Positions 7,701 to 63,356 of a stretch of DNA of 64,000 nucleotides are shown here, piece after piece. The notes under the pieces are model-generated. The model did not search any database and was not told the origin of the DNA. It was given only the letters and a program-made list of their open reading frames with translations. The first letter of the stretch is position 1. Each line of letters begins with the position of its first letter. The DNA is taken from assembly GCA_020746105.1 (NCBI GenBank), contig CM036618.1, positions 8,502,501 through 8,566,500 of the forward strand. Reading direction: 5' to 3'. Source of the stretch: Trogon surrucura. Its lineage: Eukaryota > Chordata > Aves > Trogoniformes > Trogonidae. Position numbers and translations under genes: made by a program.

Positions 7701-9319
7701 TGGTTTTAAACAGAAACAGAGATTCTTGTATTTTTGTGTGGCATCCTTTTTGCACGGTCAGGTCATTCAGAAAGCCTGTTAGTTGGGCAAAGTAGGCAGG
7801 AGGATATTTGTCAGACAAAAATATTTTTTTGTGGTCTATCTTAATCCTTCTTTGGAAGCAAGTAGCTCTATAGCAGTGAGCAAGGAAGGGACTTCATACT
7901 GTAGGGTTAAGAAATAAAATATTTAACACTTTTTTATTTTTTTTTCCTTGAAATGTCGAAATACGAAGGCTTGTAGTACTCTTGTCCACAGTATCAGAGG
8001 AGAGCAGGAAGAACTAGCGATCTGCGAGCTACCCAGGATCAGCCTCTTCGTTTCATTACTGATATTGTTCATTTGTTATCAGAGAGGGTGGAATTTGTGA
8101 AGCTGGCCACAGTACATTTTGTAAAGGCTGTGTTACTGTGCGTAACTCCACTGTATAAAGGAGATAAAATTCTTGGCCTGTCAAAATGTTGTGGGATTTT
8201 TGTGGGTTTTGTTTTTATTCTTTTAAATGATCTTTAATATTTTCTACCAGTACGTCTTGAACAAGAAGAAATTCTAGACTGTGCTGGTTTATAATGCCTT
8301 GCTAATGTTTATTATTCTTTGATTTTCAAGAGGATAATCCAAAAAAAAGCACAGAACAACTACAGGCCTATGGCACTGTCACTATTTGCTTCGCTAATGT
8401 GTAGTCTTTGTATTGTCCAGATCTACAGGTGTTACAAAAGAGTAAATTGGTCAACTAGTACTGCAGTCTCTGTCCTTGCTAATTGGTTCTTACAGCAAAA
8501 AACTGCAATATATCTTCTTGCTGTCCTTGAGAAAAGCAAAAGAGTAGTAGTGTGTCGACACACACTGCTTCTACAGTATTTGCTTTCTTACAGTCAAAAC
8601 TGGTGGGACAGAGCGTGGTGCACCAGACCTTCATTCCTGCTAAAACTATGTGGCTGTGGTTTTTCTGAGAAATATTTTGACCAAAAAAATCATTCAAATA
8701 TAAACATTAACAAAGATTGTGGTAAGGCTGTTCTTTGTAAAATGGCAATATGCCCACGATGGAAAAAAAGTATTTTCTTTTTCCTTTTCTCCTTCGATCT
8801 GCCCAGCTCTAATGTTTTCCAGTGCTTTCAGTATGGTTGTAAGGTGCTCCCTGCTTCTTGCAGTCTCCTCATTTCTTTTATCAGCTTTTATCAACTGTGT
8901 GAACACGGGGAGAGGAGCAGAAGTTGCAGTTTGGCAGGTCAGTTCGTGAAAACAATTAGCCCTTTAAATTTGAGACTAGTCAGATGGTTTGTTGACAAGA
9001 ACTTGCTGTTCTGCTGTTTAAACATAACATCCAAGTTTTCCTGTTTTCACCCTAAATGGCAGCAGGGCTTAATGTTGTCTGCAGCGTTCACTGGGATGTT
9101 TGGTCCTCTTTTTGTTACAACATGGATTTCGAACTGCAGCTGCCACGTTTTTTTATGAGTTCACCAAGAACCTCTCCTGGAACGTTTTGCAGATTATTTT
9201 CTATGAGATATTACAGTTCTGGTGGCCGTTTTTTTGGATCTGTGTCATACTTGGGATACTAATTTTAGTCTTGTCTTGAGTTCTGTTTCTTCAGTAAATG
9301 TTTTTGTATCTCATTGGGT

Positions 9320-9772
9320 TTCTCTGTAGTGTTGTGAAGTTCTTGGAGAGAACCAAGGAGAATCTCCATCCCTTATTGGATGGGGGGGGAAACATCACTA
9401 CTAAGGATGAGGAAAAGGCTGAGGTACTCAATGCCTCCTTTGCCTCACCCTTTAGTAGTCAGACTGGTTACCCTCAGGATATTCAGCCCCCTGAGCTGGA
9501 GGGCAGGGACAGAGCATGGAATATACCCCCCATAATCCAGGAGGAACCAGTTAATGACCTGCTACACCACCGGGACACTCTTAAATCTGTGGGGCCGGAC
9601 GAGATCCACCTGAGAGTGCTGAGGGAACTGGTGGAGGAGCTTGCGGAACGCCTCTCTATCGTTTGTCAGCCGTCCTGGTTAACAGGGGAGGTCCCAGATG
9701 ACTGGGGGCTTGCCAGCGGGATGGCCATCTGCAAAAAGGGCCAGCAGGAGGATCCAGGAAACTACTGCTTTT
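9320..9772 (+). mobile_element. CR1 LINE ORF2 fragment lacking its 3' end
   Basis: The + strand encodes a CR1 ORF2 segment upstream of and entering the reverse transcriptase: TTKDEEKAEVLNASFAS, then a KSVGPDEIH-like block, [11 protein letters not shown], and finally EDPGNY. Similarity stops abruptly after GNY at about 9772, just before the NYRPVSLTS motif. CR1 copies are usually truncated at the 5' end and keep the 3' end, so loss of the 3' side here points to a later deletion or rearrangement. Confidence 0.85.
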
Positions 9773-14740: not shown

Positions 14741-14771
14741 ATGATGGCTCAGTTTCCCGCAGCCCTGAACG
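14741..14771 (+). CDS. ITSN2: ITSN2 exon 2, coding part
   Basis: Encodes [10 protein letters not shown] plus the first base of the next Gly codon, and ends at a strong donor (G then GTGAGTAG). Start choice: two consecutive ATGs in good context, with the N terminus known for ITSN2. Leaves phase 1. Confidence 0.95.
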
Positions 14772-23700: not shown

Positions 23701-26700
23701 ACAACACCTGGGGACAGGTCTTGCAGCTGGTAGGGAAAAATTTGGCAAGTAGACTTGTTTTATGTCTAGATAACACGGCTTACTTTGAACTCCTCATTCC
23801 TTTCATTGGAAAGTTTCTTGTTGGTGACACTTTCTTCTTTCTATTTTTTTCCATGTCTAAAATCCATCCCAAAGTATTGATTGCAGGATTGGGGCAGCAT
23901 TTGTTCTTCTGTACTCAGACTGGTGAGGCTGCATCTCAAGTACTGTGTTCAGTTTTGGACCCCTCACTACAGGAGAGATGTTGAGGTGCTGGAGTGGGTC
24001 CAGAGAAGGACAACAAAACCAGTGGAGGGCCTCGAGCACAAGTCTTACAAGTTGCAGCTGAGGGAACTAGAGGAGGCTCAAGGGAGACCTTATCGCTCTC
24101 TACAGCTACCTGAAAGGACAATGTGGTGAGGTGGAGGTTGGTCTCTTCTCCCAAGTAACGGGCTCCGTTTGCTCCAGAGGAGGTTTAGAATGGATGTTAA
24201 GAAAAGTTGGACCTTAACCAGCAAGGTTGTTAAGCATTGGAACAGGCTGCCCAGGGCAGTGGTGGAGTCGCCATCCCTGGAGGTGTTTGAAAGCCGTGTA
24301 GATGTGGTGCTCAGGGACACGGTTTAGTGGTGGACCTGGCAAGTGCAAGGTTTATAGGTGATCTAAAAGGTCATTTCCAGCCTAAATCAGTTTAAGATTG
24401 TGGGCAAAGATGTGCCGATGTAATTGGATAGAAGAATGGGCTTGCTTCATGTGCTGCATCAGTGTTATTAACTCAGCAAGTGATTTCAGTGGCATTATTT
24501 TTCCAGAATTAGGCAGAAAATACTTTATTGCTAATTTTGAATCTTGTTATAGGGATTGGATAAGCCAAATCTGTGTGCCAATGCCTTCCCATAAGTATCC
24601 AGTGTGAGTTTACCAACATTATAGGTTACAGTAACTGCAACTTTTTATGAGAAATAGAAAGCTCTTTTCATTAACACTTGAGAAAATACTGTTACAAAAA
24701 ACTAGTGTAAAAGGTAGCTTACTAATGTGTGGTTGAGAGTACTGCTATGTTTATACACGTTTCCTAATGTATTTTTTACATTAGTAGAGCTCTCACAAAA
24801 CTTTTAAAAAAGATGTTTACATGTCTTCAAGTAAAATTGATTGTAATTTGTTGTCTGTGTTTTACTTTTTTTTATGAGTAATATTTTGCTTGACTGTTGT
24901 GTTGCTTTTGTTTCAGTAAAGCTTGGCAATAACTGAATTAAGAAGAATAAAACGTGTAGTTGTAATGAGCTAAATGATTCTGCAGTTTTTGTAAAGTACC
25001 GAAATACTATCCTGTTGTTATAAACTGATAGTTTAAGTGCTTTGGAATCATCAAGTTATGCTGTGAAATACAGAAAATAAGAGGATCTGCTGTCAGCATG
25101 GACAAGGCTATTATGTGTCTCTAAATTGCTTTAGGGATCTTTCTAAAAGCAAGGATTGTGTTTCTACATTGAGATCACTGCATGGCACAGAAAGTTGAAT
25201 GTTTTTCCATTATCGATAAATTTTATGTATTGAAGTGGGGGATGCTAAAGACCATATCTTCAGGCAAAATACTGCATCGTGTGGAGTTCTGCTTCTCTTT
25301 TGTAGGAGCAGGTGGTTGGTTTAAACAGGCCCAGTATTTTACTTCAGTGAACTACTGAACCTAAGGCTTCCCAGTACACCAGAATATCTAGAAATCCTGT
25401 TCATAGTGTAGAGAATGAGCTTTATCCGCGTTCTCTAAGCGTGCTCTTCTCGGCCAAGTCTCTGTAGCCTGTCGCTGTTTGACAGGCAACTGTTATTTTT
25501 GGACAGCACGTCAGTGGCACTTGGGAATCTTAAAAAAAAAAATTCCCTTGGCTTCCTTGGGCGCAATTCTTGTAATTCTGGTGAAAATACAGTATTGGAG
25601 GAGAAACCTGTTTCCCTCTGTTGACCGCGCTTTAGCTATCAGTGTTTCCTTTTAAATGCGTATGCTTCAAAGAAGCTGCTGAAGTTTTTGTTAGGCTTAG
25701 ACATTACCCCTTTCCTCTGGCTTAATACGCTGAGAGCCTCTGTAAAGTATTTCTGGTAGGACAAGTAGTAGCAAGATTTATGTGTTGTGAAAGGAGGTTG
25801 CACGTGGCTCCTGCAGTGGCCTGAGAACAGGGGAGCTGGGAATAAGCGACGAGTTCCTCAAGGAAGAGCAGGTGGTGCTTTTGGGACGGACCCAAAGCCA
25901 CCACAGCAGTGGTTTGTAACGTATTTGCACACCTAAAGAAGAATAAACTCTTATTATAGGTCAGCATTTTCTGCGAAGTTTGATATAAAGAGTCAACAAC
26001 AAAGGAGGGTGGTAAATATTGAAAATAGCAATAACACTGATAAGGGAATCTGAAAGTTGAGACTAATGGTAAAATGTTCTGTGTATTTTCAGACTCCTGG
26101 CGTGTTTACTCGCCACTGAGGAAAAATTAGAAGTATGATTCTGTGATCTCAGTTGGAAGCATTAAATCTGATCTGTGGTAAACTTCTGTACAGACACAGA
26201 CTGGAATGATTAGATTTATCCCAATATATCTTAAATCAAACAGCTCTTCCGAGGCTCCTAATGGGGAGGGTAATGCGATTGCTGGTTCCATTAAGGAAAA
26301 CCCCTTGCTGTGCAGCTTGAGGCATGCTGCTGCGTATCTCTGTTGAAATTTCCCTGTCTTTAAACATGGATATAATATTTATTTAGGGTTATTATGAAGC
26401 TTAATGCTAGTTTTTTGGATGGTTAAAAAGGCAGTGGTGTGATCTCTCATCATATTGTTTTATGTGTACAAGGAATGCACTTTGAAGCAGCTTTATTATC
26501 TCTGTGGAGCTAATTAACTTTCTAGGTCGTAGGAGCGTAGTTTTTATTAGAGAAAAACAAGCAATGCCTATCGAAAAACAAACACAATTCTGTGGAGAAC
26601 ATGAGAAATGACTTAAAATTTTCCACCAGTGAAAAGTTGCATTTATTCTTTTCAGTAGTAGTACTGCTCTCGCTTCAACTACCTGTTGCCTGTAGGTGGT

Positions 26701-41700: not shown

Positions 41701-44700
41701 GCCAAGAAATGGGAACAACCATCAGTTTGTTGGCTTGGGCTCTGTGTTAGACCGCAAGGAGCCTGAGGATGCAGCAGGCTCCCCAGGTGGACTGGGGGAG
41801 CTACAGCAGCAGTAGAGAGGAAGAAAAGAGTGGCAGTGGTGACATCTAACCAGAAGGGCCCAAGAACTGTAAGGCTGGCCAAGTTAGCTCTGTGAAGTCT
41901 GCAGTCATTTTTCAAGCATCACTGTTGGGACTGAGACTCTTTCTTACGACTTTGTAAAGTGGACACCTCACCATCATTTTTGTGCTGTGTGCTCCTCCAT
42001 ATCTGCATCTCCCTTATGTGTCTGCATCTCCCTGATGAGGAAAGGCTGAAGGAGCTGGGTCTCTTTAGCTTGGAGAAGAGGAGACTGAGAGGTGACCTCA
42101 TTCATGTTTATAAATATGTCAAGGGGGAGTGTCAGGAGGACGGAGCCAGGCTCTTTTCAGTAATGTCCAGTCACAGGACAAGGGGCAATGGGTACAAGCT
42201 GGAACATAGGAGGTTCCACAAAAATATCAGAAAAAACTTTTTCACAGTAAGGGTGCCAGAGCCCTGGCACAGGCTGCCCAGGGAGGTTGTGGAGTCTCCT
42301 TCTCTGGAGACATTCAAAACCTGCCTGGACGCCTTCCTGTGTGACCTACTGTAGGTGATCCTGCCCTGGCAGGGGGACTGGACTAGATGATCTTTGAGGT
42401 CCCTTCCAACCCTTAACACTCTATGACTGTGACTCTGTGCATTAGTAAATGCTTAGATATTTGCGCTTTATCTTTTCCAAGAAAAGTTTGGGAAGGACAC
42501 TGCAGTACTGCAGCTGTTGATTGGAATTTCTCAAAAGAAATTTAAGAGAGCTGTTCATTCCCTGTTGATTTTCAGTGATGTTTGTGCTGTGCCGTGGCGG
42601 TACGGTAGTTTCAAAAGACTTCGCACAAAGTTCATACAGGAGTAGTTTTCTGAAAGTTCTTGTCAAACTGGATTGCTCACTGTAATGCAGGGAGTAGAGC
42701 GCTGGGCAGGCAGTTAGATGATGTAAATTCAGTTTGTGTGTCTGTAGCCGACTAGATTTCCCATTTCAAATAAGCATTTTTTAAGCTTCTGCCTCCTCGC
42801 CTACAAAAAAGGAGGACAATTCTCTCTTTTGAGAAGGGGACTCGGTGTGTTATGTGTTGTTCAGTTGACTTTGGGCTGGAGGTTTCACTGACCTGCCTAA
42901 AATGATATTTAGTTCTTTGCTATCAAAGGAAAGCCGACAGCTTTCCAGGATGCCAGCTCGAGCTTTAGGTAGGCGGTCAGCTGTGCTTTTGTAACAGCTG
43001 TGGGGATTACCATAAATATGCATTTTTCATGTCAGCTTTTCTGTTAGGTGCTTCAAGTGGAAAAAAAAAAAGAATACAAGAATACTCATATCTTTATTGT
43101 GTTCGGGTTGTAATGCCTTTTGTTCAGCCTGGAAGTAAAGTCAACTGTCAGGCACTGATGAAAATGGATTAAATTAGTATTAAAAATAAACATGCCCCAG
43201 TTCATGACCCATTTCTTTTTTTTTTCTTTTTTTTTTTTTCTACATGAGAATCTTTGTTCAAAGTGTTTATTTTTTTAAAAATCTTTTACACTTTCACATA
43301 GGATTTCAAGCAAGGAATGCCCTTCTGCAATCAAACCTTTCACAGACTCAGCTGGCTACAATTTGGTAAGTTTAGCTACTGATTATGATTTCAGTGCATT
43401 TATGGTGTGAAGAGAGAAAATATCCCTTCATAATTTCTTATACAGTAAAGTACACCATAGATCTGAAATAATAAACTGAAACTAAGCTACTTCTTAAACT
43501 AATTTGGTCATTAGTACATTTTCAAAAGACATCTTGACTTAATGTGATTAATTTTTTCACTCTGTTATTAAAGTCCATATAATAGTATAGATATTAAATT
43601 CAGTTTCTGATTCAGCGATGCACTGGTTTAGCAGAGAGGAGGATTTGTTCATTTGAAAAGTAGGATTCCAAAATCAAGCGTGTTAGTTGTAAAATATGGA
43701 GAAACATTAAAAATGAAGTAGCTGGTCACGTTTGTAGAGTTTTACTGCAGTTCCCATGAAGATATGTGCATTTCAGACATTTTTTAAGACTTGCCTTTAC
43801 TGTGGTGACAGCAATGGTTACAGTAGTATTAAAGCTGGAATAATCTGCCCTGCTAGATAGGATAGTTTGGATTACACCTTTGGACATAGCTCGGCTGATA
43901 CACCTGAAAATATACTGGCACCGCAGAATTCACAATAACTCGATGCTTTACATCCCTTCCTGAGTTCCATTTCTTCGTCATCTTTATCCCAGGGCGGTCA
44001 CTTGTTTGTCTCTGAGAGCAGCAAGGTGAAATATTCCTTAGATTCATTCAGCTTGTTTGGTTGCACGCTGTGAAGGTGAAAAAGGGAGTGTCGGGTTGTG
44101 TTCCTCTGGAGTGTGGGGAAATAAAACCGGTCTGGAGGGACTGTTTTCCTCCCGGTGCCTCACCTGAGGGTATCAGTAGCTGGGGTTTGGGGAGTCTGTG
44201 TACCCCTGTAGAGAATTAACAGCCCAAGTTTCTCTTTTGCCCAAAATAAGGAATTACCACCATTTCTGCCAGGGTCCTGCATTCATGGTAATGACTATAA
44301 AACGGGGCTGTCAGGTGTGAATAGTGCTGGTCTATGAACACACAAAAAATCTTGTTTCGTCATGTCCTGCTTTTGTTTTTCACTGGGGTATGTGTGGGGG
44401 TGTTGGCGATTTTTTTTATTTGCTTTATTGTTTCCTTTTTGGTTCTAGTAAGGTTTTCATTAACTGCTTTTTCCTTTGTTTTAACAAGCAATTATTTTAT
44501 TAAGCATTTGACTTCAGTGCAGTGTAAGGACACATTCGTGCGGTTGCATCTACATAGATAGTTCTCTGAGAAAAGTTCCTGCTTACTTGCCTGCATCTCT
44601 GGAAACATTTCACTTGTTTCCCACCCACGCAGCACCCCCTACCTCCCCAGTGTTGTGTGGGAAGCATTTTGCAGGCTCATGGTATGCTCGTGCTGTTTGC

Positions 44701-47700
44701 TTTCTCTGAAGGGGTAGGTGATCCTTTTCCTACCCGTTGCAGAGGACTCTGGGGCAGCTCCCATCTTTTCCTGCGCAGTCGAGGAGGCACAAGGTGGGGA
44801 GGGAAGAGAATTCTATGCAAAGATTCCTATTGTAGAATTTGATGTAATTTTATGCAATGTTTTGCTTTGAAAAAAATATCGAAAAAGTGGTTTCTAACAT
44901 GTTGAGCTGGTTAAGAACAGTCCTGATTTCTTTTCCCAGCTCTTCTCTTGGTGATGCAATGAATCAAGAGATGTCTCAGCCTCTCCTGTCCTTTTTGCTT
45001 TATTTTAGGAAAACATATGAATAGCAGTACTTCATTAAACAGTATCTGCCTTGATCACCTGTTCATGCCATTAATTGTAGTTATTTTTGTCAGAACATTT
45101 CACAGGAATTTCTTTTAAGAAGTTCCTTTTCAGGGGAATCTCTTCTAAAAATGATTTTTGCAATAACTCTTTCAGCTTTCGTTTGTGAGGGACTGTGATG
45201 TTTGGTTCTAATTAGTATTGCTGTTAAAACCATTCAGGTCGTTGGCTGATATTGATGGAGATGGGCAGCTGAAAGCTGACGAGTTTGTGTTAGCCATGCA
45301 CCTAACTGATATGGCCAAAGCAGGACAGCCTCTGCCACTAACTCTGCCTCTTGAACTTGTGCCACCTTCTTTCAGGTATGTATCTCTGAGGACAATGAAA
45401 CAGAATGTTATTTTACATGTGTGTATATATATATACATGTATATATATATATGAATAATATTATTTTTTACATATAAAAAGAAAATAACTGTCTTATTTC
45501 CTCTAACAACGGTGGTGTGGGGTTTTTTTTTTTCCTCCAGGAGTGGAAAATATACTGAAAATATAAATGGAACTCTGCCATCTTACCAGCCTGTACAAGA
45601 GGAGGAGCCACAGAAAAAACAGCCAGGTAAAATAGGGTTCGCGTTCTTGATGGATAGCACTGTCTTTCAAGGGCGCAGAAATCTTCAGAAAGTGGAGAAC
45701 GTAATCAAGTCCCTAGAGAGCTTCATTTCAGGAGGTAGATCCCTTTTAACTTGGATGGTAGGAACGTTGTTAAGTGGATGTAGTCAGCCTAGTACAGCTA
45801 ATAGATTTGAGAAAGCAGAGATAGGTGCTTGGTTTTAGCTGTTGGAAAGGAAAAGTGTGCTGATTAATAATGTATTTTGGGAAAGAAATCAGACATGGCC
45901 AAATACTGCCATGCTACTGCAAATTTTTTTTTCTGGTTGAAAGTTCCCAGCGTTACTTTGTTGTGGACGTTTGGAAAGCAAAGGCTTCCGGTGTAGTTTA
46001 ACTCTCTGCAAACTCGAGGCAATTTGCACGTAGCACAGATTCTGCTATTGACTCCCTGATGCTACCGGCAAAGGTGTCTTATGTGCACACTGCAAGACAG
46101 GACTTGCCTTTTCTTTGAGAAGGGTTGTTGCCAAAAGCCTAAACCATTCCTTTGTATCTCTTTTTATGCTATACGGCACTAATGGAGCTTGATCCTGTTT
46201 TGTTTTCTGCTTTTTTAAACTCCAGGATCTCTTACAGCCAACACCCTTAAAAACTGAGTGCTTTCTCTGGACATTAATGTTTCTTTTAAGAGAAGATAGT
46301 CTTTTCCTAGCTTATAAAAGCTGTTTGTTTAGGTTTCCTCTAAAACGCAAATAATTTTATACTAAAACTTTTTTTTTTTTTACCCCCAATTGGACCAGAT
46401 GTAGGAAAATATGGTATTTTTGAAAAGAAAAATAACGCTTTAACAAATACAGGATGCTTGTATCATCCGTGACCCAACAAACCTGAGCTTGCCAAAACGA
46501 AAGTGTCTATCTTTAGTGGCATAACTGAGGTACAGAAATAACTACCTTTCCTTACTTCAGTGACATTTGAGGACAAAAGGAAAGCCAACTATGAGAGGGG
46601 AAATATGGAGCTGGAAAAACGCCGTCAGGTCCTGTTGGAGCAGCAGCAGCGAGAGGCTGAACGGAAGGCTCAGAAAGAAAGAGAAGAACAAGAGCGAAGA
46701 GAGAGAGAACGTCAGGAACAGGAACGGAAAAGACAACTCGAAATGGAAAGGCAGCTGGAGAGACAACGAGAGCTGGAAAGACAAAGGGAAGAAGAAAGGA
46801 GGAAAGAAATAGAAAGACGGGAGGTTGTTTTCTTGAAATTGTTTTTTAATGCTTTAAAGGAGTGTGTCCACTTGACAGAGCATTCGGGGTTTGAGTGCTG
46901 GCTGTGGTTCTGCATCCTCTCATGGCTGTTGGCGGGTTGTCTTGGAGAGCGAGCATCGTTTGTGTCTGAAAACCTCGTGTCTGTTACAAATGAATCGAGT
47001 GTTGGTGGAGGCTGAAGATTTTCAGATACTTCGTAGGACAGATGAGGTTTTCTTGGACAGTTTTCTTGCACGTATGCACAAAATCTGTGTACCAAACAAG
47101 ATTGTGCTGAATTCATGATTGATATTATTTTGACAGTTGAACTTGAGACAAATTTGCTTCTACTTGGCGTCTCAGCGCATGAATAAGACTTGCACATAGT
47201 TCCATGAAATGCTCAAAACTGGTTATGAGCAGTATCTGTCAATGTGCTCGTTTATGGGCAGTATTCCAAGCTAAACAGACTCCCTGTCTGAATTTTGTAG
47301 CTTCTTTTCATCCAGTGTTAGGAGCATGGCATGAAGAATCTTACAGGATCACTTCCTTTGTTCTTTGATGCTGAAGTATGTAAGAGGACTTTATGGAAGA
47401 CAATATGTTGTGCTGCTGTTAGGCTGTTTAGAAATCGAGCACGTTATATTACATCATAGTCTTCTGAGTTCTGCTTCTTCGTTGTAATTTAAGGAAATTT
47501 TTTTGCAGGCAGCAAAGCAAGAACTTGAGCGCCAGCGACGGTTGGAATGGGAGAGGATTCGTCGCCAAGAACTTCTTAACCAACGTAACAGGGAACAAGA
47601 AGAAATTGTCAAGTTGACCTCTAAAAAGAAGAGCCTTAATCTTGAATTAGAAGCCCTGGTAATACAGAAATTCCACTACACATCTTGAAATACAATATTT

Positions 47701-56700: not shown

Positions 56701-59700
56701 TTTCTGGATTCAGCTGAATATGCTGTCTGTAATACTAGAGCAGGAGCATAAGAAACATCTTCTGTCTTCTCAGTTGAAATATGTGTTACTTCATGTAACT
56801 GCAATGCTTGTCAGCATACATACTTTTGAAAGAATGTGCATTCAGATGAACCTGTGAAAATTGATTTACAGCTGTGGTAATAAGCTTAATATGTACATGT
56901 CTGGACAAGGGTTAGGGCTAGACCAGCTACTAAACAAATTACAGATTATTATTAATAATAATAATATTAATAATACCAAACCAAGGCAGGTTCCTCCTCA
57001 TTCAGACTATAAGCCATATAGAGAGGTGACAGGGGAGAATCCACAAAGCAATGTGGTACAAAATATTAGAACACTTAAGTATTAGGCTTCACTTTAACAG
57101 TGTTAAATCATTTATTTGCATTTTCATACCGATGAAGCATGAAAGAGGGAAAAGGAGAAGTAGGTTTTGGGTTGGCTTCCTTCTCAGATATAATTGTGTC
57201 ATTTAACTGTTAATAATGTATTTTAGAAATAGGCTAACAGCTGCTACCTGCTCCTCCTCTTCTCATACCCCAAACCTCAACCAAGCTACCTAGCTGATAG
57301 TATTTGACAAGCTGCTAATTTTTAGCCAATTTCAACAAATTTGCTGATTAGCATCATAGTGGAGGCTTCAGTACTGCTGTGAATGTTTAAGGATGCTCTG
57401 CACCTAATTGTATAGTAAACTGCAGAATTTTTGGACGCAGTTTGGATGTAGTCCAATGACACAATTATATCTGTAAGCAGAACTGCAGCAGTTGTTTCCG
57501 TGCCCTGCTGGGCTCGTCAGCTGCCCCCTCTTGGCCACGTGTTTGGCGAAATACAGCTCGATGCATCATAATTTTTGGCAATCCAGAGCAGCGCCAGGTG
57601 TAGCCCATGATTCCCATCGTGCGTGGTTGGGACTTGTTTGAAAGAATATAACGTTTTTTGAGGCCTTTCTCTACCTGTGTCTAGAAACGGGGCAATTGTG
57701 TCGTCCCCCTGTTTCTTGGACAGGGTGAAATCAGCTCAGTTTTTGAAAGGGAGGAGAATGAAAGTGCTGATCCCCGTACGAGCGCTGCTCACGCCGCTTC
57801 ATTCGGAGCGTCAGCGGGTGCTGACGCACTAGATGCCCCGTTTGTTTCACGCTGCTCATTGCGTTTTCTTTGTATTTATCCTCCTGTCCCTAGGTCGATG
57901 AAAAAACTGTGGGAGAGCCTGGCTGGCTTTATGGGAGTTTTCAAGGACAATTTGGTTGGTTTCCATGTAATTATGTAGAAAAAATACCAGAAGGAGAAAA
58001 ATGTTTATCTCCGAAGAAGGCCTTACTTCCTCCTACCGTATCTTTATCTACTACCTCAGCTGCTTCGGAGTGAGTTTGTTGTGTTTGTGATAAAATTGCT
58101 GCTTCTGAATTTAGCTGACACGTGATGTTCTGCATAGATTCCTTGGGTGTTTGTTTTTAAAATCCAAATGCAGAAAACTTATTGAAGAACCTACCTGAAA
58201 GTCTTAACTTGGTAATTTTTATTTTAAAAGCACCTCAAGCAGAATAACTTCTTGGGTTCTTTCCATGTGGGAAGCAAATATTTGATACGATGCGAAGCGG
58301 CCTATCAAACACTTAAAATTATAACGTGTTAAATATGCTTGCGTTTAATTTGCAGACCACTTTCACCAAGTAAAACTACGGAAGAATCTGATTACCAAAA
58401 CGTACCTTTTTCTAGCCTGAATGTCACTACGGCGTGGCAACAGAAATCGGCTTTTACTCGCACTGTGTCCCCTGGATCTGTTTCACCCATTCATGGACAG
58501 GTACAGCGCGTGAGAGTGGAGAACTTACTGTATTTTAGATTCATGTTAATGAAACTAATTTAAAGAAAGAACAAACCAAAACACGGGTTTTCTAATACTG
58601 GGTGCACTGAACAGGCCAGAGGCTTAAGCTAATCTGAATTCTCCACTACTGGGCATCGACGTAACTCCCTGTATTTCCAGGGACTACTGAGCAAGAAGGC
58701 TCCTGCAGTATGTTTCATAATTCTACAATAATTTTCACCTCTAATTAGACACACGAGATATTTCTAACAAATAAGAAATGGAGTTGAGAGACTGTTCCTT
58801 AATCAACAGCTTGTATATGCCAATGTAAAAAAAAAAAAAAAATTACTGACCCCTCGCTTCGGAATGTAGTTGCTTAAGCTTCAATAAAAAAATACGTCAG
58901 TTCTTATCTGGTTTTGAGACTTGCACCAGTTTGGGGTAGTGTGCTTGGTCAGTATCTCCTTTTCTGTCTTAACAGGGGCAGCCTGTCGAGAACTTAAAAG
59001 CACAAGCACTTTGCTCTTGGACTGCAAAAAAAAGATAACCACTTGAATTTTTCAAAAAATGATATCATTACCGTCCTGGAGCAGCAGGAAAACTGGTGGT
59101 TTGGAGAGGTACATGGAGGAAGGGGTTGGTTTCCAAAATCCTATGTCAAGCTCTTACCTGGAAGCGAAATCAAGAAAGAGGAGTAAGCGTGAAAATTTTT
59201 TTTGTGGTTTATTTTTTGTTGTTGTTCAACAGTTGGCAAAAACAGGTGGTTTAGAATGCAAAACTCCTGCAGTGCTTTAAAGTGCAGAATATAAATACTG
59301 TTTGCGATTTACACAACGCCGTTTTAGGCTTTTATTATTTCATTCTGGCAAACCAAGTAATGTTGGGCTCACTACTGTGAGACTTTCAAGGCTGAGTGCT
59401 ATGAAAAATCAGTGGTGTTTGATTATTCATCAAGTGCCAGACTTTGTATTGGTTCGTTACTGGATCAGCTCTCTTGCAGGTGCCAATTTCTGAAGGTGCC
59501 AATTTCTAAGTGACCTACAAATAATTGTAACCTGGTAAACCACATCTTGCAGAAATAGTGTAACTTTTCTTTGCTTGGAAAGATCATTGTGTCTATTCCA
59601 ACGCTGCAAGATAACTAATTAGGTCGTAATTCAAAGTCTGGATACTGCTGGGATGGCTGCAGCATTGTGTGTGCATTGTTCTTTTCATGCTTTATGATAA

Positions 59701-62700
59701 AAGTTTGCAGAAAATATCTAGAATGGAAGAATTTAGACACCGTCTTTAATTTGTGCTTCTTTATGGTAGCGTAATTTGGGAATCTATCTTCTCTTTCAGC
59801 ACGTTCCAGATTTTTTTTTGGAAGCAGTGTGCTCTTGGTGCCATTCATATCTTAGATATCAGTAATACCTGTCAGGGAAGTCTTTGCAATTAATTCATAA
59901 GCAATACCAACTTCAAGATGACTGAAGTGAACTTAGTCTCTTCCTAATAAAGAGATATGCTCTGGCTCAGCCTTTTAGTTACTTAAACTTTTTTCTTCTT
60001 TTTTTTTTTTCTTTTGTGCAGACCAGAAGCTATTTATGCAGCTGTAAACAAAAAACCTAACCCGCAGCCTCATGCAGCAGGAGAGGGTAAGACAGCTTGA
60101 AATATACTACTTAACGATACGGTCTGTTTCTGCTCAACGGCCTGTGAGTAAGTTTAAATATATGACGAGTTTCTGAGCTGGCCTTTTAAAGCTTGTCCGG
60201 AAAACAGCCCTAATGCTGAACTAATGTTATGAGAATTCTTAACCAATAAGTTAAGTAAAGCTTATAACTAATTCAGGTTAAACATAGGCCTGGGTTTTGG
60301 TTTAGTTTTTATGACTTTTGCTTGAACATTGATTTATTTCTGAAAACATCAATATGCCTCCCACCCAGAAGCTGAGTTCTCTTCCTGCTGTTCTCTACTG
60401 TATTATGTGAGACTGTAGAGACATGAGAAGGGCTGTTTCATCTCCTGAGTGTGGATCACTCCCTTTCAATCAGTAGGGAGTAAAGAAAGCAAATATTACT
60501 GGAGAAACATTTGTGGGAAGCACTTTCTACCTTTTAATCTAGTGTATCTCAGCACTTCCCCAATTATATTAGAATTCCATTTGTTTGTTTTCATTTTCTC
60601 TGTGTTAAATAAGAATGGTTGTAGTCAGGTAGTTTAGGTGTGGAAGGTAGCTGCTTTCTGTGGAACACAGAGGTAAGGTGGGATGCTTCATGCAAGAGAT
60701 GAGTTTTCAAGCTGTGGTCTTCAGGCCTCTGCTGGCCTGCGGGGTGATCGTAGGGTAGTAACTCTCTCATTCATTTGTCTGTACTAAGTTTTGTACCTGC
60801 AATTCAGAGTTGCAAGCATGATTTGATTACAATCAAGCAAGTAGGTAGGCTGATCGTGTGAAGACACGATCTCTGTTCCAATCATCCTGATGAGCACCGA
60901 TAGCGAAGATGCCTTTACTTGCACCTCAGCCTGCTTTTATCCTCCCGCCTGAAACTGTTGTCTCCTTCTTTCTACGTGCTGTCTGCGCAGAGTACGTTGC
61001 GCTCTACTCGTATTCGAGCTCTGAGCCTGGTGACTTGACTTTCACGGAAGGCGAGGAAATCCTCGTGACCCAGAAGGAAGGGGAGTGGTGGACGGGAAGC
61101 ATCGATGGCAGAACCGGAATCTTCCCTTCCAATTACGTTAGACCAAAAGACCAAGAAGTGAGTTCGCATTCTGAGAGTTCACACGCGGTGCTTTCTCTCA
61201 GCTTCATTGTATTACTGGCAGTGGTACCTGGCTCTTAGTGATTTTCAGCAGAAATTAATGTGCTTGACAGAAAAACATAATTAGCTTGAGCGCTAAATGA
61301 GAGCTGTAGCCAGAGTGTCACACTGTCTGTCTCCAAACAGGATGTTATTTTGTTAAACACAGACTCAAAATTAAAATTTCCACGTGCTTTTTTTTCCCAC
61401 ATGCGTAAAGTTGGTGTAAACTCGACTGTTTTTATTGCACATTAAAAGACGATTGTTGTGTCTTTGTAGGCTTCTAGTAATGCTGGCAAAACTGGAACAA
61501 TAAATAAGAAACCCGGTAAGCGTGTGATAACTTTTTAACATTTAGGACTGTTTCTAAGTGGCCTTATGATTATTTAGGTTAATTGCAGTGTTTTAATGGT
61601 GGGTAATGGGCTTAGCTGCAAGAGATACGTACCAGGGTATTTTCTGTCCACATTGCTCTTACTGTAATGAAAAATAAAGCCAAATGCAATTGATGTATTA
61701 TCTTTTCAGAAATTGCTCAGGTTACTACTGCCTATGCTGCATCAGGAACTGAACAGCTTAGTCTTGCTCCGGGACAACTGATACTGATTCTGAAGAAAAA
61801 TGCTAGTGGATGGTGGCAAGGAGAGTTGCAGGTAGATATTGAAGGAGGAATAATTGTGACTTCATGAATGGCAAGGAAGTACAGTGTTCTAAAACAAGCT
61901 AGAAAGTCATTTTCATCTTGTGTAAACTATACTGGGGGGAAGAGAGGCTTTAATTAAATCTTGGGTTATTGGGGTTTTTCAGTTTTGGTTTGTTGGCTGT
62001 TTTTTGGGGGATTTTTTTGGTCACAGAAAATAGTAAAATAGTTGTTATTTTGACTTTTGGAGCCCCATGGATCTTGTCTATAGTAGCCTTGGTCTTTGCA
62101 ACTAGTACAAAAAGTTTAATTGTGATCTTAGCTCTATTTGTCGCTCTTTTCTTCAGCTAAATTTTAGCTGAATCTGCAGCGTTAGCCTGAATTTAAATGT
62201 GATACTTCCAATCCTGAATGGTATTCCCAATATTGGGATTGAACAGCACAACAGGAAGTTTTGTCCTCTTAATATTGCTCAGTTGGCCTTTCCCAAGGTG
62301 TTCTACAGCCATACACGGTCTGTTTTGAGCAAATACTCTTGATAAATCCAGTCTGTCCTCTCCAGCAGTTAGGACAGGGCTGATCCAGCAATTCAACATC
62401 TGTTTTTAAAACTGACCTGCTTTACAGATGCAGGAGGATTTAAGTGAGCAAGCTGAGAAATGGCTGCACTGATTTTCTGTGAATTAACAGCCGTGGAAAA
62501 TACAGTTGTTGTGTGTCCAACAAATAAATGCAGAAAACAATAGTTTGTATTTTAGGAAAAGTAAGCAATGTGCTGGTTCAGGAAGAAGCTTCAAAGAATA
62601 AAGAAAAAAGGTGGGGGAATTGAAGCTAAGATACATCAATTCTTGCTAGTTTAAATTTCTTCTTTTGTTGTAATACAGCTCACTCTGCCATTGCTACTTT

Positions 62701-63356
62701 TTGAGATGACTTTTACATCCTGACTTTCTGTGCGCTCTGAAGTGTATTTGTTTCTTCAGCGTGTGCAGAGTTCATCTCCACCTGTGGGACTAAAAAGGCA
62801 AAGACCAAAAACTGAGGAAATTTTTTTCAAACTCTCACGTGCTGTTCTGAGTAGGAAGTGGTATCAAATACTTAAGTCAGGATTTTCAGAAGTAGCTTAT
62901 GGTAGTTGTTACCTCTGTTCTGGGTATCTTTAGAGACTCCTGATACGGTGCATGGGTAGAATGTTCATAGAGCAGATTTTCAGCCCTACAATTAAACTGT
63001 GCACTGAAATAATTAACTGCAATTCCAAATTTTGCATTAATACATTTACCAAAACATACTGAGGTGCAACTTTATTTGAACACGTTTTATGCTTTAGCCA
63101 GTTTTTTTTTCTTTTTGAGTTCTATTTAGTCAGCGTTTGAAAGCCTAACTTTTTTAGCTTCTGTTGGCAAAACTGTGTGATATATTTGTTGCCTTTTTTT
63201 TCCAACCTGTAGGCTATTTGTTTACTTAACTGTTTCATAACCATTGTAAATGTTTACAGGCAAGAGGGAAAAAGAGACAGAAAGGATGGTTCCCTGCCAG
63301 CCATGTGAAATTACTGGGTCCGAGCAGTGAAAGAACCACGTCTGCTGCTCCCTCAG
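14741..63356 (+). CDS. ITSN2: Intersectin-2, spliced coding region in 26 exons, 3' part outside the window
   Basis: ITSN2 is a cytosolic endocytic scaffold acting at clathrin-coated pits. EH domains bind NPF-motif proteins, the coiled coil self-associates and binds Eps15-type partners, and SH3 domains recruit dynamin, synaptojanin and actin regulators. Exons 2-27 join with consistent phases to about 1194 residues: EH1 about 15-105 (Ca loop [13 protein letters not shown] at 67-79), linker with Met/Pro/Ser-rich exon 6, EH2 about 245-330 ([13 protein letters not shown] at 289-301), charged coiled coil about 365-790, SH3A 826-884, SH3B about 968-1022, SH3C 1051-1106, SH3D about 1122-1185. The start [10 protein letters not shown] and specific blocks such as [19 protein letters not shown] and [20 protein letters not shown] identify ITSN2 rather than ITSN1. 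SH3E and any DH-PH-C2 exons are beyond 64000. As given, exon 22 has one extra A (A8 at 59026-59033) that causes a stop at 59036-59038; residue numbers after that assume A7. Confidence 0.95.
15768..15786. repeat. T19 homopolymer
   Basis: Run of 19 T in intron 2, about 200 bases before a CR1 copy. A prime site for length errors. Confidence 0.9.
15988..16390 (-). mobile_element. Well-preserved CR1 LINE 3' fragment
   Basis: Starts on the left with the reverse-complement tail CAGAATCACAGAATG and ends at TTCCTCAGAA. The minus strand keeps a long frame reading [20 protein letters not shown] and [20 protein letters not shown]. It is very similar to the plus-strand copy at 42034-42439 and is cut at almost the same 5' point. 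The low divergence suggests a younger insertion than the other copies. Confidence 0.95.
20037..20052. repeat. T16 homopolymer
   Basis: Run of 16 T in intron 2. Confidence 0.9.
20328..20370 (+). mobile_element. CR1-like 3' tail remnant
   Basis: GGTGACCTTGGAAGCCCCTT followed by CCAACCCAATGGTCCTA resembles the last bases of several CR1 subfamilies. The piece is only about 40 bases, so the call is tentative. Confidence 0.45.
22428..22560 (+). mobile_element. Ancient CR1/L3-type LINE remnant
   Basis: GAGCAGCTTCCATATGAGGA, followed about 30 bases on by TTTCAGTTTGGAAAAGAAG, matches the old amniote CR1/L3 pattern (CTTCCGTATGAGGA, then TTCAGCTTGGAAAAGAGA). It is far more diverged than the bird-type CR1 copies nearby. 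A faint continuation may reach about 22890, where a block resembles the old 3' region. Confidence 0.6.
23885..24395 (+). mobile_element. CR1 LINE, 3' part
   Basis: Runs from CTGTACTCAGACTGGTGAGG through AACAGGCTGCCCAGGGCAGT and the terminal CATTTCCAGCCTAAATCAG. Together with the 3' half of 29055-30305 it belongs to a subfamily with the CGTGTAGATG(T/C)GGTGCTCAG block, distinct from the copies at 15988 and 42034. The 5' end is truncated and the frame is broken. Confidence 0.9.
29055..30305 (+). mobile_element. CR1 LINE with reverse-transcriptase remnant, internally deleted
   Basis: The largest repeat here. The + strand reads [19 protein letters not shown], then (after a frame change) [18 protein letters not shown], then [20 protein letters not shown] and [13 protein letters not shown], the CR1 reverse transcriptase in order. 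The catalytic FADD region is mutated (the frame reads SLGVSQSW at about 29610-29635). A segment is missing at about 29665, where the sequence jumps from the GGTGGGAAGG block to GCTGGAAAGCTGCC. An in-frame stop at 29317-29319 also interrupts it. It is a dead 5'-truncated copy with an intact 3' end. Confidence 0.92.
33132..33224 (+). CDS. ITSN2: ITSN2 exon 3 (start of EH1)
   Basis: The acceptor is TTTTTTCAG and the donor is ACAG then GTTGGT. 93 bases encode [20 protein letters not shown] and [12 protein letters not shown], the first helix of EH1. Enters and leaves in phase 1. Confidence 0.95.
33225..34905 (+). other. ITSN2: ITSN2 intron 3
   Basis: 1.7-kb intron of unremarkable sequence. No repeat or RNA feature recognised. 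Confidence 0.85.
34906..34969 (+). CDS. ITSN2: ITSN2 exon 4 (EH1)
   Basis: The acceptor is TTATTACAG and the donor is ATATG then GTAAGG. 64 bases encode [20 protein letters not shown], the second part of EH1 with its conserved LP-x-LAEIW core. Enters in phase 1 and leaves in phase 2, splitting the conserved Trp codon of the NPF pocket. Confidence 0.95.
34970..36644 (+). other. ITSN2: ITSN2 intron 4
   Basis: 1.7-kb intron with no recognised mobile element. Its acceptor tract contains a (TTG)5 microsatellite (36622-36636). Confidence 0.85.
36622..36636 (+). repeat. (TTG)5 microsatellite in the exon 5 polypyrimidine tract
   Basis: Five TTG units followed by TTTTTAAG sit directly before exon 5, so the repeat makes up most of the acceptor's pyrimidine tract. 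Confidence 0.85.
36645..36808 (+). CDS. ITSN2: ITSN2 exon 5 (EF-hand loop of EH1)
   Basis: 164 bases encode the rest of EH1: W63, the loop [13 protein letters not shown] (67-79), [17 protein letters not shown], then the start of the linker ending MSARF. The acceptor is TTTTTAAG and the donor is TTTG then GTACTT. Enters in phase 2 and leaves in phase 1. Confidence 0.95.
37460..38233 (+). mobile_element. CR1 LINE, 3' part
   Basis: The + strand begins in the CR1 ORF2 segment [20 protein letters not shown] and continues through [20 protein letters not shown], then the 3' region ending TCTAAGGTCCCTTCCAAC and a worn tail. It is 5'-truncated with several frame breaks. It shares its subfamily with the copy at 40018-40436. 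Confidence 0.92.
38653..38674. repeat. (AT)n microsatellite
   Basis: About eleven AT units in intron 5, some 200 bases before exon 6. Confidence 0.85.
38879..39076 (+). CDS. ITSN2: ITSN2 exon 6 (EH1-EH2 linker)
   Basis: 198 bases encode a low-complexity Ser/Thr/Pro/Met linker starting [20 protein letters not shown] and containing [20 protein letters not shown], an ITSN2-specific block. The acceptor is TGTTCTAG and the donor is TCGA then GTGAGT. Phase 1 on both sides, so skipping this exon would be in frame. Confidence 0.95.
39363..39459 (+). CDS. ITSN2: ITSN2 exon 7 (linker)
   Basis: 97 bases encode [18 protein letters not shown] followed by [13 protein letters not shown], a Gly-rich linker with the conserved [11 protein letters not shown] block. 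The 286-base intron before it holds nothing notable. Enters in phase 1 and leaves in phase 2. Confidence 0.95.
40018..40436 (+). mobile_element. CR1 LINE 3' fragment
   Basis: Runs from a worn CACCTCT block through GGAGCTGGGATTGCTCAGCC and GATCTCTAAGGTCCCTTCCA to the terminal CTATGATTCTGTGAT. Closely related to the copy at 37460-38233, 2 kb upstream in the same orientation. The left border is approximate. Confidence 0.92.
40505..40527. repeat. T23 homopolymer
   Basis: Run of 23 T in intron 7, 70 bases after the CR1 tail. Length is likely unreliable. Confidence 0.9.
41386..41528 (+). CDS. ITSN2: ITSN2 exon 8 (linker and start of EH2)
   Basis: 143 bases encode a Ser-rich stretch, then [20 protein letters not shown] and [17 protein letters not shown], the beginning of EH2. 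The acceptor is TATTACAG and the donor is TCAG then GTGAGT. Enters in phase 2 and leaves in phase 1. Confidence 0.95.
41529..43301 (+). other. ITSN2: ITSN2 intron 8
   Basis: 1.8-kb intron carrying a well-preserved CR1 copy (42034-42439). A 13-base unit TCTGCATCTCCCT is repeated at 42002-42014 and 42021-42033 immediately before it. Confidence 0.85.
42034..42439 (+). mobile_element. Well-preserved CR1 LINE 3' fragment
   Basis: Encodes [20 protein letters not shown] through [20 protein letters not shown] on the + strand and ends with CTTCCAACCCTTAACACTCT and a tail of GACTGTGACTCTGTG. It is highly similar to the inverted copy at 15988-16390. Confidence 0.95.
43302..43365 (+). CDS. ITSN2: ITSN2 exon 9 (EH2)
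   Basis: 64 bases encode [20 protein letters not shown], the second helix of EH2. The length and phases (1 in, 2 out, splitting a Trp codon) mirror exon 4 of EH1, a trace of the ancient EH duplication. The acceptor is TTTCACATAG and the donor is ATTTG then GTAAG. Confidence 0.95.
43366..45237 (+). other. ITSN2: ITSN2 intron 9
   Basis: 1.9-kb intron. I recognise no repeat or RNA feature in it. Confidence 0.8.
45238..45375 (+). CDS. ITSN2: ITSN2 exon 10 (EF-hand loop of EH2)
   Basis: 138 bases encode the EH2 loop [13 protein letters not shown] (289-301), [20 protein letters not shown] and the end of the domain. The loop keeps acidic residues at Ca-coordinating positions. The acceptor is CATTCAG and the donor is TTTCAG then GTATGT. 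Phase 2 on both sides. Confidence 0.95.
45376..45540 (+). other. ITSN2: ITSN2 intron 10, short, with TA microsatellite
   Basis: This is the shortest intron seen (165 bases). It carries a (TA)n run interrupted by CATG at about 45424-45452 and an 11-base T run just before the acceptor. Confidence 0.9.
45541..45626 (+). CDS. ITSN2: ITSN2 exon 11 (after EH2)
   Basis: 86 bases encode [20 protein letters not shown] and EEPQKKQP, the hinge between EH2 and the coiled coil. The acceptor is CCTCCAG and the donor is CCAG then GTAAAA. Enters in phase 2 and leaves in phase 1. Confidence 0.95.
45627..46560 (+). other. ITSN2: ITSN2 intron 11
   Basis: 934-base intron with nothing recognised beyond a T run at about 46370-46381. 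Confidence 0.85.
46561..46823 (+). CDS. ITSN2: ITSN2 exon 12 (coiled coil)
   Basis: 263 bases encode [20 protein letters not shown] followed by a run of Arg/Glu/Gln-rich coiled coil ending KEIERRE. The acceptor is CTTACTTCAG. The donor is GAG then GTTGTT, which departs from consensus at +3, +4 and +5. Homology and phase (0 out, joining GAG to GCA GCA AAG) still fix the border there. Confidence 0.88.
46824..47508 (+). other. ITSN2: ITSN2 intron 12
   Basis: 685-base intron. The reading frame from exon 12 stays open to a stop at 47013-47015, so retention would add about 63 residues before terminating. No repeat recognised. Confidence 0.85.
47509..47658 (+). CDS. ITSN2: ITSN2 exon 13 (coiled coil)
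   Basis: 150 bases encode [20 protein letters not shown], then [20 protein letters not shown] and [10 protein letters not shown]. The acceptor is TTTTGCAG and the donor is CTG then GTAATA. Phase 0 on both sides. Confidence 0.95.
47888..48028 (+). CDS. ITSN2: ITSN2 exon 14 (coiled coil)
   Basis: 141 bases encode [20 protein letters not shown], then [20 protein letters not shown] and QLQQQLQ. The acceptor is TTCTTACTAG and the donor is CTTCAG then GTATGT. Phase 0 on both sides, so skipping would be in frame. The 229-base intron before it is plain. Confidence 0.95.
48029..48862 (+). other. ITSN2: ITSN2 intron 14
   Basis: 834-base AT-rich intron. Nothing recognised. Confidence 0.85.
48863..48950 (+). 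CDS. ITSN2: ITSN2 exon 15 (coiled coil)
   Basis: 88 bases encode [20 protein letters not shown] and KNAQLENTQ, with the conserved LVPEKQLL block. The acceptor is ATCTACAG and the donor is CAGA then GTAAGT. Enters in phase 0 and leaves in phase 1. Confidence 0.95.
48951..49520 (+). other. ITSN2: ITSN2 intron 15
   Basis: 570-base intron with an A13 run at 49010-49022. No other feature recognised. Confidence 0.85.
49521..49660 (+). CDS. ITSN2: ITSN2 exon 16 (coiled coil)
   Basis: 140 bases encode [20 protein letters not shown], then [20 protein letters not shown] and AFNSQLK. The acceptor at 49519-49520 (ATGCAG) keeps the family length. A second AG six bases on would remove two residues in frame. 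Enters in phase 1 and leaves in phase 0. Confidence 0.95.
49661..52313 (+). other. ITSN2: ITSN2 intron 16
   Basis: 2.65-kb intron. I recognise no mobile element or RNA feature in it, so it is the longest repeat-free stretch of the 3' half. Confidence 0.8.
52314..52450 (+). CDS. ITSN2: ITSN2 exon 17 (coiled coil)
   Basis: 137 bases encode [20 protein letters not shown], then [20 protein letters not shown] and EDEAA. The acceptor is CTCCTTAG and the donor is GCAAG then GTACCG. Enters in phase 0 and leaves in phase 2. Confidence 0.95.
52451..54445 (+). other. ITSN2: ITSN2 intron 17
   Basis: 2.0-kb intron. Nothing recognised apart from short open frames on both strands that show no family signature. 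Confidence 0.8.
54446..54885 (+). CDS. ITSN2: ITSN2 exon 18 (end of coiled coil and linker)
   Basis: 440 bases, the longest exon here. It encodes a Lys/Glu/Arg/Gln-rich coil ([20 protein letters not shown] onward) and then a less charged linker with [20 protein letters not shown] and [14 protein letters not shown]. The coil-to-SH3A stretch looks longer than I recall for human ITSN2. A GTAAAA donor at 54853 would shorten the exon by 33 bases in frame. The acceptor is TCTTTCAG and the main donor is GAAG then GTAATC. Enters in phase 2 and leaves in phase 1. Confidence 0.93.
54886..55999 (+). other. ITSN2: ITSN2 intron 18
   Basis: 1.1-kb intron. Nothing recognised. Confidence 0.85.
56000..56121 (+). 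CDS. ITSN2: ITSN2 exon 19 (start of SH3A)
   Basis: 122 bases encode [20 protein letters not shown], then [20 protein letters not shown]. The SH3 signature ALYPF and the acidic RT-loop residues of the first SH3 domain are present. The acceptor is CCTTTCAG and the donor is ATTCAG then GTGAGG. Enters in phase 1 and leaves in phase 0. Confidence 0.95.
56946..56975. repeat. (ATT/AAT)n microsatellite
   Basis: Interrupted trinucleotide run (ATTATTAATAATAATAATAT and more) in intron 19. Confidence 0.85.
57808..57827. repeat. Perfect hairpin, 8-bp arms and 4-base loop, in a CpG cluster
   Basis: GCGTCAGC (57808-57815) and GCTGACGC (57820-57827) are exact reverse complements around a GGGT loop. The hairpin lies 66 bases before exon 20, within a stretch of about 60 bases holding some nine CpGs. 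Each arm carries a TGACG half-site. Confidence 0.8.
57894..58069 (+). CDS. ITSN2: ITSN2 exon 20 (end of SH3A and linker)
   Basis: 176 bases encode [20 protein letters not shown] and [10 protein letters not shown], completing SH3A with its binding Trp and the NYV end, then [18 protein letters not shown] of the linker. The acceptor is GTCCCTAG and the donor is CGGA then GTGAGT. Enters in phase 0 and leaves in phase 2. Confidence 0.95.
58356..58500 (+). CDS. ITSN2: ITSN2 exon 21 (SH3A-SH3B linker)
   Basis: 145 bases encode [20 protein letters not shown] and [18 protein letters not shown], a Ser/Thr/Pro linker with several SP sites and the family-conserved [13 protein letters not shown] block. 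The acceptor is TTTGCAG and the donor is GGACAG then GTACAG. Enters in phase 2 and leaves in phase 0. The 286-base intron before it is plain. Confidence 0.95.
58501..58975 (+). other. ITSN2: ITSN2 intron 21
   Basis: 475-base intron with an A15-16 run at about 58826-58841. Nothing else recognised. Confidence 0.85.
58976..59182 (+). CDS. ITSN2: ITSN2 exon 22 (SH3B), one base too long
   Basis: The acceptor is TCTTAACAG and the donor is GAGGA then GTAAGC. It encodes all of SH3[20 protein letters not shown] before and [20 protein letters not shown], then [18 protein letters not shown] after an A8 run (59026-59033). The exon is 207 bases, but the flanking phases (0 before, 2 after) need 206. Read literally, the frame meets TAA at 59036-59038, two codons after the run. 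With seven A the whole domain reads in frame, and the conserved sequence on both sides supports that. A homopolymer error is likeliest, but a real frameshift allele is possible. Confidence 0.9.
59183..60021 (+). other. ITSN2: ITSN2 intron 22
   Basis: 839-base intron. GGTGCCAATTTCT occurs twice in tandem at 59479-59491 and 59495-59507. No mobile element recognised. Confidence 0.85.
60022..60086 (+). CDS. ITSN2: ITSN2 exon 23 (SH3B-SH3C linker)
   Basis: 65 bases encode [20 protein letters not shown] and E, matching the family block [11 protein letters not shown]. The acceptor is TTGTGCAG and the donor is GAGG then GTAAGA. Enters in phase 2 and leaves in phase 1. Confidence 0.94.
60087..60990 (+). 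other. ITSN2: ITSN2 intron 23
   Basis: 904-base intron. The last 80 bases are open in the frame of exon 24, which creates a long open frame but no evidence of an alternative start. Nothing else recognised. Confidence 0.85.
60991..61157 (+). CDS. ITSN2: ITSN2 exon 24 (SH3C)
   Basis: 167 bases encode a complete SH3 domain in one exon: [20 protein letters not shown], then [20 protein letters not shown] and [16 protein letters not shown]. The ALYSY signature, the WW pair and the PSNYV end are intact. It is noticeably richer in CpG than its neighbours. The acceptor is CTGCGCAG and the donor is CAAGAA then GTGAGT. Enters in phase 1 and leaves in phase 0. Confidence 0.96.
61470..61515 (+). CDS. ITSN2: ITSN2 exon 25 (SH3C-SH3D linker)
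   Basis: 46 bases encode [15 protein letters not shown], a short spacer between the third and fourth SH3 domains. The acceptor is TTTGTAG and the donor is CCCG then GTAAGC. Enters in phase 0 and leaves in phase 1. Confidence 0.92.
61710..61831 (+). CDS. ITSN2: ITSN2 exon 26 (SH3D)
   Basis: 122 bases encode [20 protein letters not shown], then [20 protein letters not shown], the first two thirds of SH3D including its WW pair. The acceptor is CTTTTCAG and the donor is TTGCAG then GTAGAT. Enters in phase 1 and leaves in phase 0. The 194-base intron before it is plain. Confidence 0.95.
61832..63259 (+). other. ITSN2: ITSN2 intron 26
   Basis: 1.4-kb intron. Nothing recognised. Confidence 0.85.
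63260..63356 (+). CDS. ITSN2: ITSN2 exon 27 (end of SH3D)
   Basis: 97 bases encode [20 protein letters not shown] and [12 protein letters not shown], completing SH3D and starting the spacer towards SH3E. The acceptor is GTTTACAG and the donor is CTCAG then GTGAAA. Leaves phase 1. It is the last coding exon I can find in the window. Confidence 0.95.

Follow-up and report, generated by a model that had tools for sequence, protein, structure and literature searches.

A single-base excess in an adenine run of the ITSN2 SH3B exon of Trogon surrucura is most likely a homopolymer miscount in the assembly

The window, i.e. the whole stretch of 64,000 nucleotides analysed here (C2:8502501-8566500, from an assembly of 1,165,559,148 bases in 164 contigs), carries on its forward strand most of ITSN2 (intersectin 2). 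The ITSN2 exons were located with a human ITSN2 probe in tblastn searches, and their limits were then adjusted by splice sites and phase. In the window this gives 26 coding exons at 14741-63356, together 3,584 coding bases, while the whole gene model comprises 38 coding exons, with a frame that is open apart from one lesion. The features of the locus are as follows.

14741 to 58500, + strand: 20 upstream ITSN2 coding exons, starting with the ATG at 14741; their joined frame is without a stop
58976 to 59182, + strand: ITSN2 SH3B coding exon, 21st in the model, one nucleotide too long (splice sites and phase chain)
59026 to 59033, + strand: run of eight As, exceeding by one base what the reading frame permits (sequence and phase chain)
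59028 to 59182, + strand: SH3B in the frame after the A8 run (SH3 domain by Pfam, ITSN2 SH3B by PDB match)
59036 to 59038, + strand: premature TAA, reached if the run is taken as written (translation)
60022 to 63356, + strand: five ITSN2 coding exons that follow the SH3B exon within the window, open in the post-run frame; 12 more lie past the window end
60022-60086, 60991-61157, 61470-61515, 61710-61831 and 63260-63356, + strand: these five downstream exons (phase chain)

The SH3B exon is the 21st coding exon of the model, and the label 'exon 22' given to it by an earlier, sequence-only reading presupposes one 5' non-coding exon. The gene was identified as ITSN2 from its SH3 domain, recognised by Pfam, and from the PDB matches of SH3B, the best of which, at 102.4 and 97.3 bits, are chains of Intersectin 2, versus 81.7 bits for ITSN1. 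This is further supported by the full domain order, recovered by tblastn with an ITSN2 sequence, which we take to be two EH domains, a coiled coil, five SH3 domains and DH-PH-C2. The donor of the coding exon 46561-46823 (GAG/GTTGTT, 46815-46830) matches the consensus poorly; phase and peptide nonetheless fit. Open fragments at 9298-9771, 23881-24324 and 41935-42351, several of them in one gene, resemble parts of a CR1-type LINE reverse transcriptase, suggesting a CR1-rich bird genome.

The A8 run at 59026-59033 has GC on its 5' side and GATAAC on its 3' side. Since the exon before the SH3B exon has phase 0 at its 3' end (58500) and the exon starting at 60022 requires two bases carried from the SH3B exon, a length of 206 nt fits, while the 207 nt found between the acceptor cttaacag and the donor gtaagc do not. 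The exon is thus one base too long for its flanking phases, as had been noticed from the sequence before. Translation also confirms the TAA following the run and the predicted end of the protein at about residue 980: the literal reading GCA AAA AAA AGA TAA stops after residue 980, with the TAA as codon 981 and the first stop of the frame. The frame starting at 59028 contains no stop in the 217 codons of the window, whereas the two alternative frames have 9 and 13, and 44 of its 47 aligned residues are identical to ITSN2 SH3B (PDB 1j3t). SH3B is therefore encoded in another frame after the run, as claimed, although the domain is almost perfectly rather than 'perfectly conserved'. The exon begins at a tandem-like acceptor (cttaacag/GGGCAG/CCT, 58970-58984), and use of its second AG would remove Gly-Gln and keep the frame.

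The remainder of the gene is open on both sides of the run. Before it, 977 codons are free of stops. After it, and including the next 60 kb of the contig, 785 residues over 18 exons read through to the normal C-terminus, ...DQKTLL followed by a stop; this number depends on the acceptor of one small exon, chosen by peptide match to the probe; with either of two other acceptors the frame is likewise open and has 778 or 776 residues. SH3E, DH, PH and C2 were located by tblastn with the same probe in the next 60 kb downstream. Within the window, 179 of 214 aligned post-run residues are identical to human ITSN2. We therefore see no sign of a pseudogene or fixed loss in the form of further lesions or relaxed conservation 3' of the break. 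A scan for adjacent tblastn pieces (at least 28 bits) in different frames found one frame break in ITSN2 and none in ITSN1. The gene is one base off and otherwise open, and such a single break strongly disfavours an old loss of ITSN2. When the SH3B exon region was compared at the DNA level with the 1.17-Gb assembly, two matches resulted, ITSN2 itself and ITSN1; as this search shows one copy and the gene is open, we reject a second ITSN2 copy or a pseudogene.

The A8 run is the longest homopolymer in the 3,584 ITSN2 coding bases of the window, where one run of 8, six of 6 and eighteen of 5 were counted. In the homologous exon of ITSN1 from the same assembly the sequence is GAGAGC-A7-GACAAC, in frame. 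Thus, the paralogue in the same genome has the length demanded by the ITSN2 frame. The 140-kb ITSN1 stretch contains a run of 201 N at about C1:103526984-103527184, a candidate assembly gap. In the window as a whole, A-runs of 8, 9, 10 and 11 occur 5, 0, 3 and 6 times; the absence of A9 runs looks odd, but these numbers are small.

The search for frame breaks was extended to other conserved domains of the assembly. A profile search with PF02214 (T1 domain) gave 44 matches and one frame-break pair, C6:98952824-98952979 and C6:98952939-98953118, which share a strand but not a frame. The two pieces join at a T10 run (C6:98952968-98952977) within ...NEFFF/DRNPSAF..., and the halves of the split Kv T1 domain match consecutive parts of the Kv2.1 domain 7re5_A (11-61 and 56-108). 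Judged from the sequence, T10 would be a second apparent +1 homopolymer break, located in a conserved potassium-channel gene; this break could itself be real. Three other PF02214 rows are weak and partial, with one in-frame stop apiece. With PF00001 (7tm_1) at least 152 matches were obtained (best 147 of 618 candidates scored), and this list of best-scoring candidates is biased to intact genes. Among the matches listed there are three adjacent pairs, each in a single frame. Twelve places with partial or interrupted 7tm_1 matches, chosen from a set with about ten further partial rows, were read by frame; they are compatible with introns, and none clearly shows a frame break within an exon. Among the genes and domain families covered, one more break like that of ITSN2 was seen, the T10, with none in ITSN1 and none among the 7tm_1 matches listed. 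Both breaks found sit in runs of at least 8, and the assembly is good in general.

Taken together, we consider it very probable that the assembly miscounts this homopolymer and that its eighth A is a sequencing or consensus error. The lesion is an indel of a length not divisible by three; it falls in a homopolymer, and the gene around it is conserved and otherwise open. The assembly would have counted one extra base in a coding A7 tract read GCA AAA AAA GAT, and we infer A7 in the animal's own DNA. Its ITSN2 would most likely be intact and full-length, with all SH3 domains and DH, PH and C2. A homopolymer indel error had already been named as the likeliest cause, and this judgement is supported by the single lesion in a gene of 38 exons, the rank of the run among the coding homopolymers of the window, the A7 of ITSN1 and the T10 break.

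A7 and A8 tracts also mutate in living organisms. From human figures we estimate the chance of a real frameshift per gene and haplotype at well under 1%. Frameshift errors, according to a passage in PMC13320880, affect 2.2% of BUSCO genes in VGP genomes and 4.9% in other genomes. Comparing these values, an error is favoured roughly tenfold over a real allele, a factor that is estimated rather than computed. Part of PMC8081667 describes short frameshift-causing indels as the commonest errors of CLR-based assemblies before polishing, and an excerpt of PMC7263694 reports homopolymer indel frameshifts in a woodpecker nanopore mitogenome prior to polishing. Similar cases are known from single bird genes. 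In zebra finch PCDH17, as presented in a section of PMC9516821, a small assembly error likewise breaks the frame of a conserved gene and was shown to be false, although it lies in a GC-rich stretch while the ITSN2 break lies in an A run. Anna's hummingbird TLK1 carries the same kind of false coding indel at an unpolished locus (in the part of PMC8081667 consulted). Reads or an improved assembly resolved the PCDH17 and TLK1 errors, whereas the ITSN2 case is known from the assembled sequence.

The main rival is a real truncating allele, which we regard as unlikely. The sequenced animal would be hetero- or homozygous for a recent replication slippage from A7 to A8, and the mRNA of this ITSN2 allele would probably be lost to nonsense-mediated decay. 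The premature stop lies 144 nt upstream of the next junction, a distance that fits the rule for such decay. A-runs are hot spots of slippage. A comparable run of eight As in human APC is linked to colon cancer, and replicational and transcriptional slippage are both deemed likely responsible in the portion of PMC5009743 concerned; it is a slippage-prone coding run as in ITSN2, but it results from a T-to-A change that leaves the gene length unchanged, while the A8 of ITSN2 itself breaks the frame. Mice without ITSN2 have been studied after infection and vaccination and showed impaired antibody responses (a passage of PMC5770159), suggesting that loss of ITSN2 is survivable, and loss-of-function variants are present in every individual (as stated in part of PMC5575292). 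However, all of the downstream sequence is open and conserved, which argues against an old fixed loss; a good fit is left only for an allele that is recent or rare, and the chance of a real frameshift in a single gene, by our own estimate, stays below the published error rates.

Far less probable is that the A8 is real and that the frame is restored during expression, by slippage of RNA polymerase from A8 to A7 or by ribosomal sliding or a +1 shift on AAA AAA A, yielding some full-length protein. Apolipoprotein B reportedly regains its reading frame at long adenine runs (Linton 1992 and 1997). The case of Linton et al. is said to concern a large gene whose frame is shifted by one base at a run of As, seen in the DNA and RNA of patients; it resembles ITSN2 in gene size and lesion, but ITSN2 is known from a DNA assembly alone. 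Slippage at an A8 would give only a minority of correct mRNA, which would be costly for a conserved gene. Ribosomes do slide along iterated AAA codons (according to an excerpt of PMC4363877). At the ITSN2 run, AAA in the P site could pair again once the ribosome has moved by +1, and a leaky site would account for the conservation downstream. In contrast, no stimulatory pseudoknot-free fold for programmed frameshifting is predicted at 59034-59134, where the 3' RNA fold is ordinary (z = -0.33; as good a fold or better in 59 of 200 shuffles), the ITSN1 paralogue keeps its in-frame A7, and nothing requires the A8 to be real. A search with Rfam gave no matches at gathering thresholds. Recoding has no positive support. 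Still more improbable is a stronger version in which A8 is the true germ-line state of the lineage, full-length ITSN2 would arise by slippage only, and a mixture with a protein of EH, coiled-coil and SH3A alone would be built in.

In a search for ITSN2 orthologues, viral_contigs contained no relative, and the one locus in genome_contigs was a bacterial SH3-like match; no vertebrate orthologue was found in either. Among the papers listed in a literature search, judged mostly by title and abstract, none deals with an ITSN2 frameshift in birds.

That unrecognised splicing (through a different acceptor, skipping of the exon or a very short intron located at the run) preserves the frame is the least credible explanation and is rejected on phase and stops: the tandem-like acceptor permits an exon shorter by 6 nt, but such a shift leaves the frame unchanged, skipping of the SH3B exon would join phase 0 to an exon needing two bases and break the frame, the AG after the run leads into ATA ACC ACT TGA with its stop, and conserved residues flank the run on both sides.

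If, as we favour, the eighth A is an assembly error, the finding is a matter of curation only: annotation pipelines would cut ITSN2 at residue 980 or add a false one-base intron, and scans for gene loss would count a false loss of ITSN2. If the A8 is real, the animal would carry a truncating allele of a gene active in B-cell responses and endocytosis, or this would be a vertebrate gene reliant on slippage.
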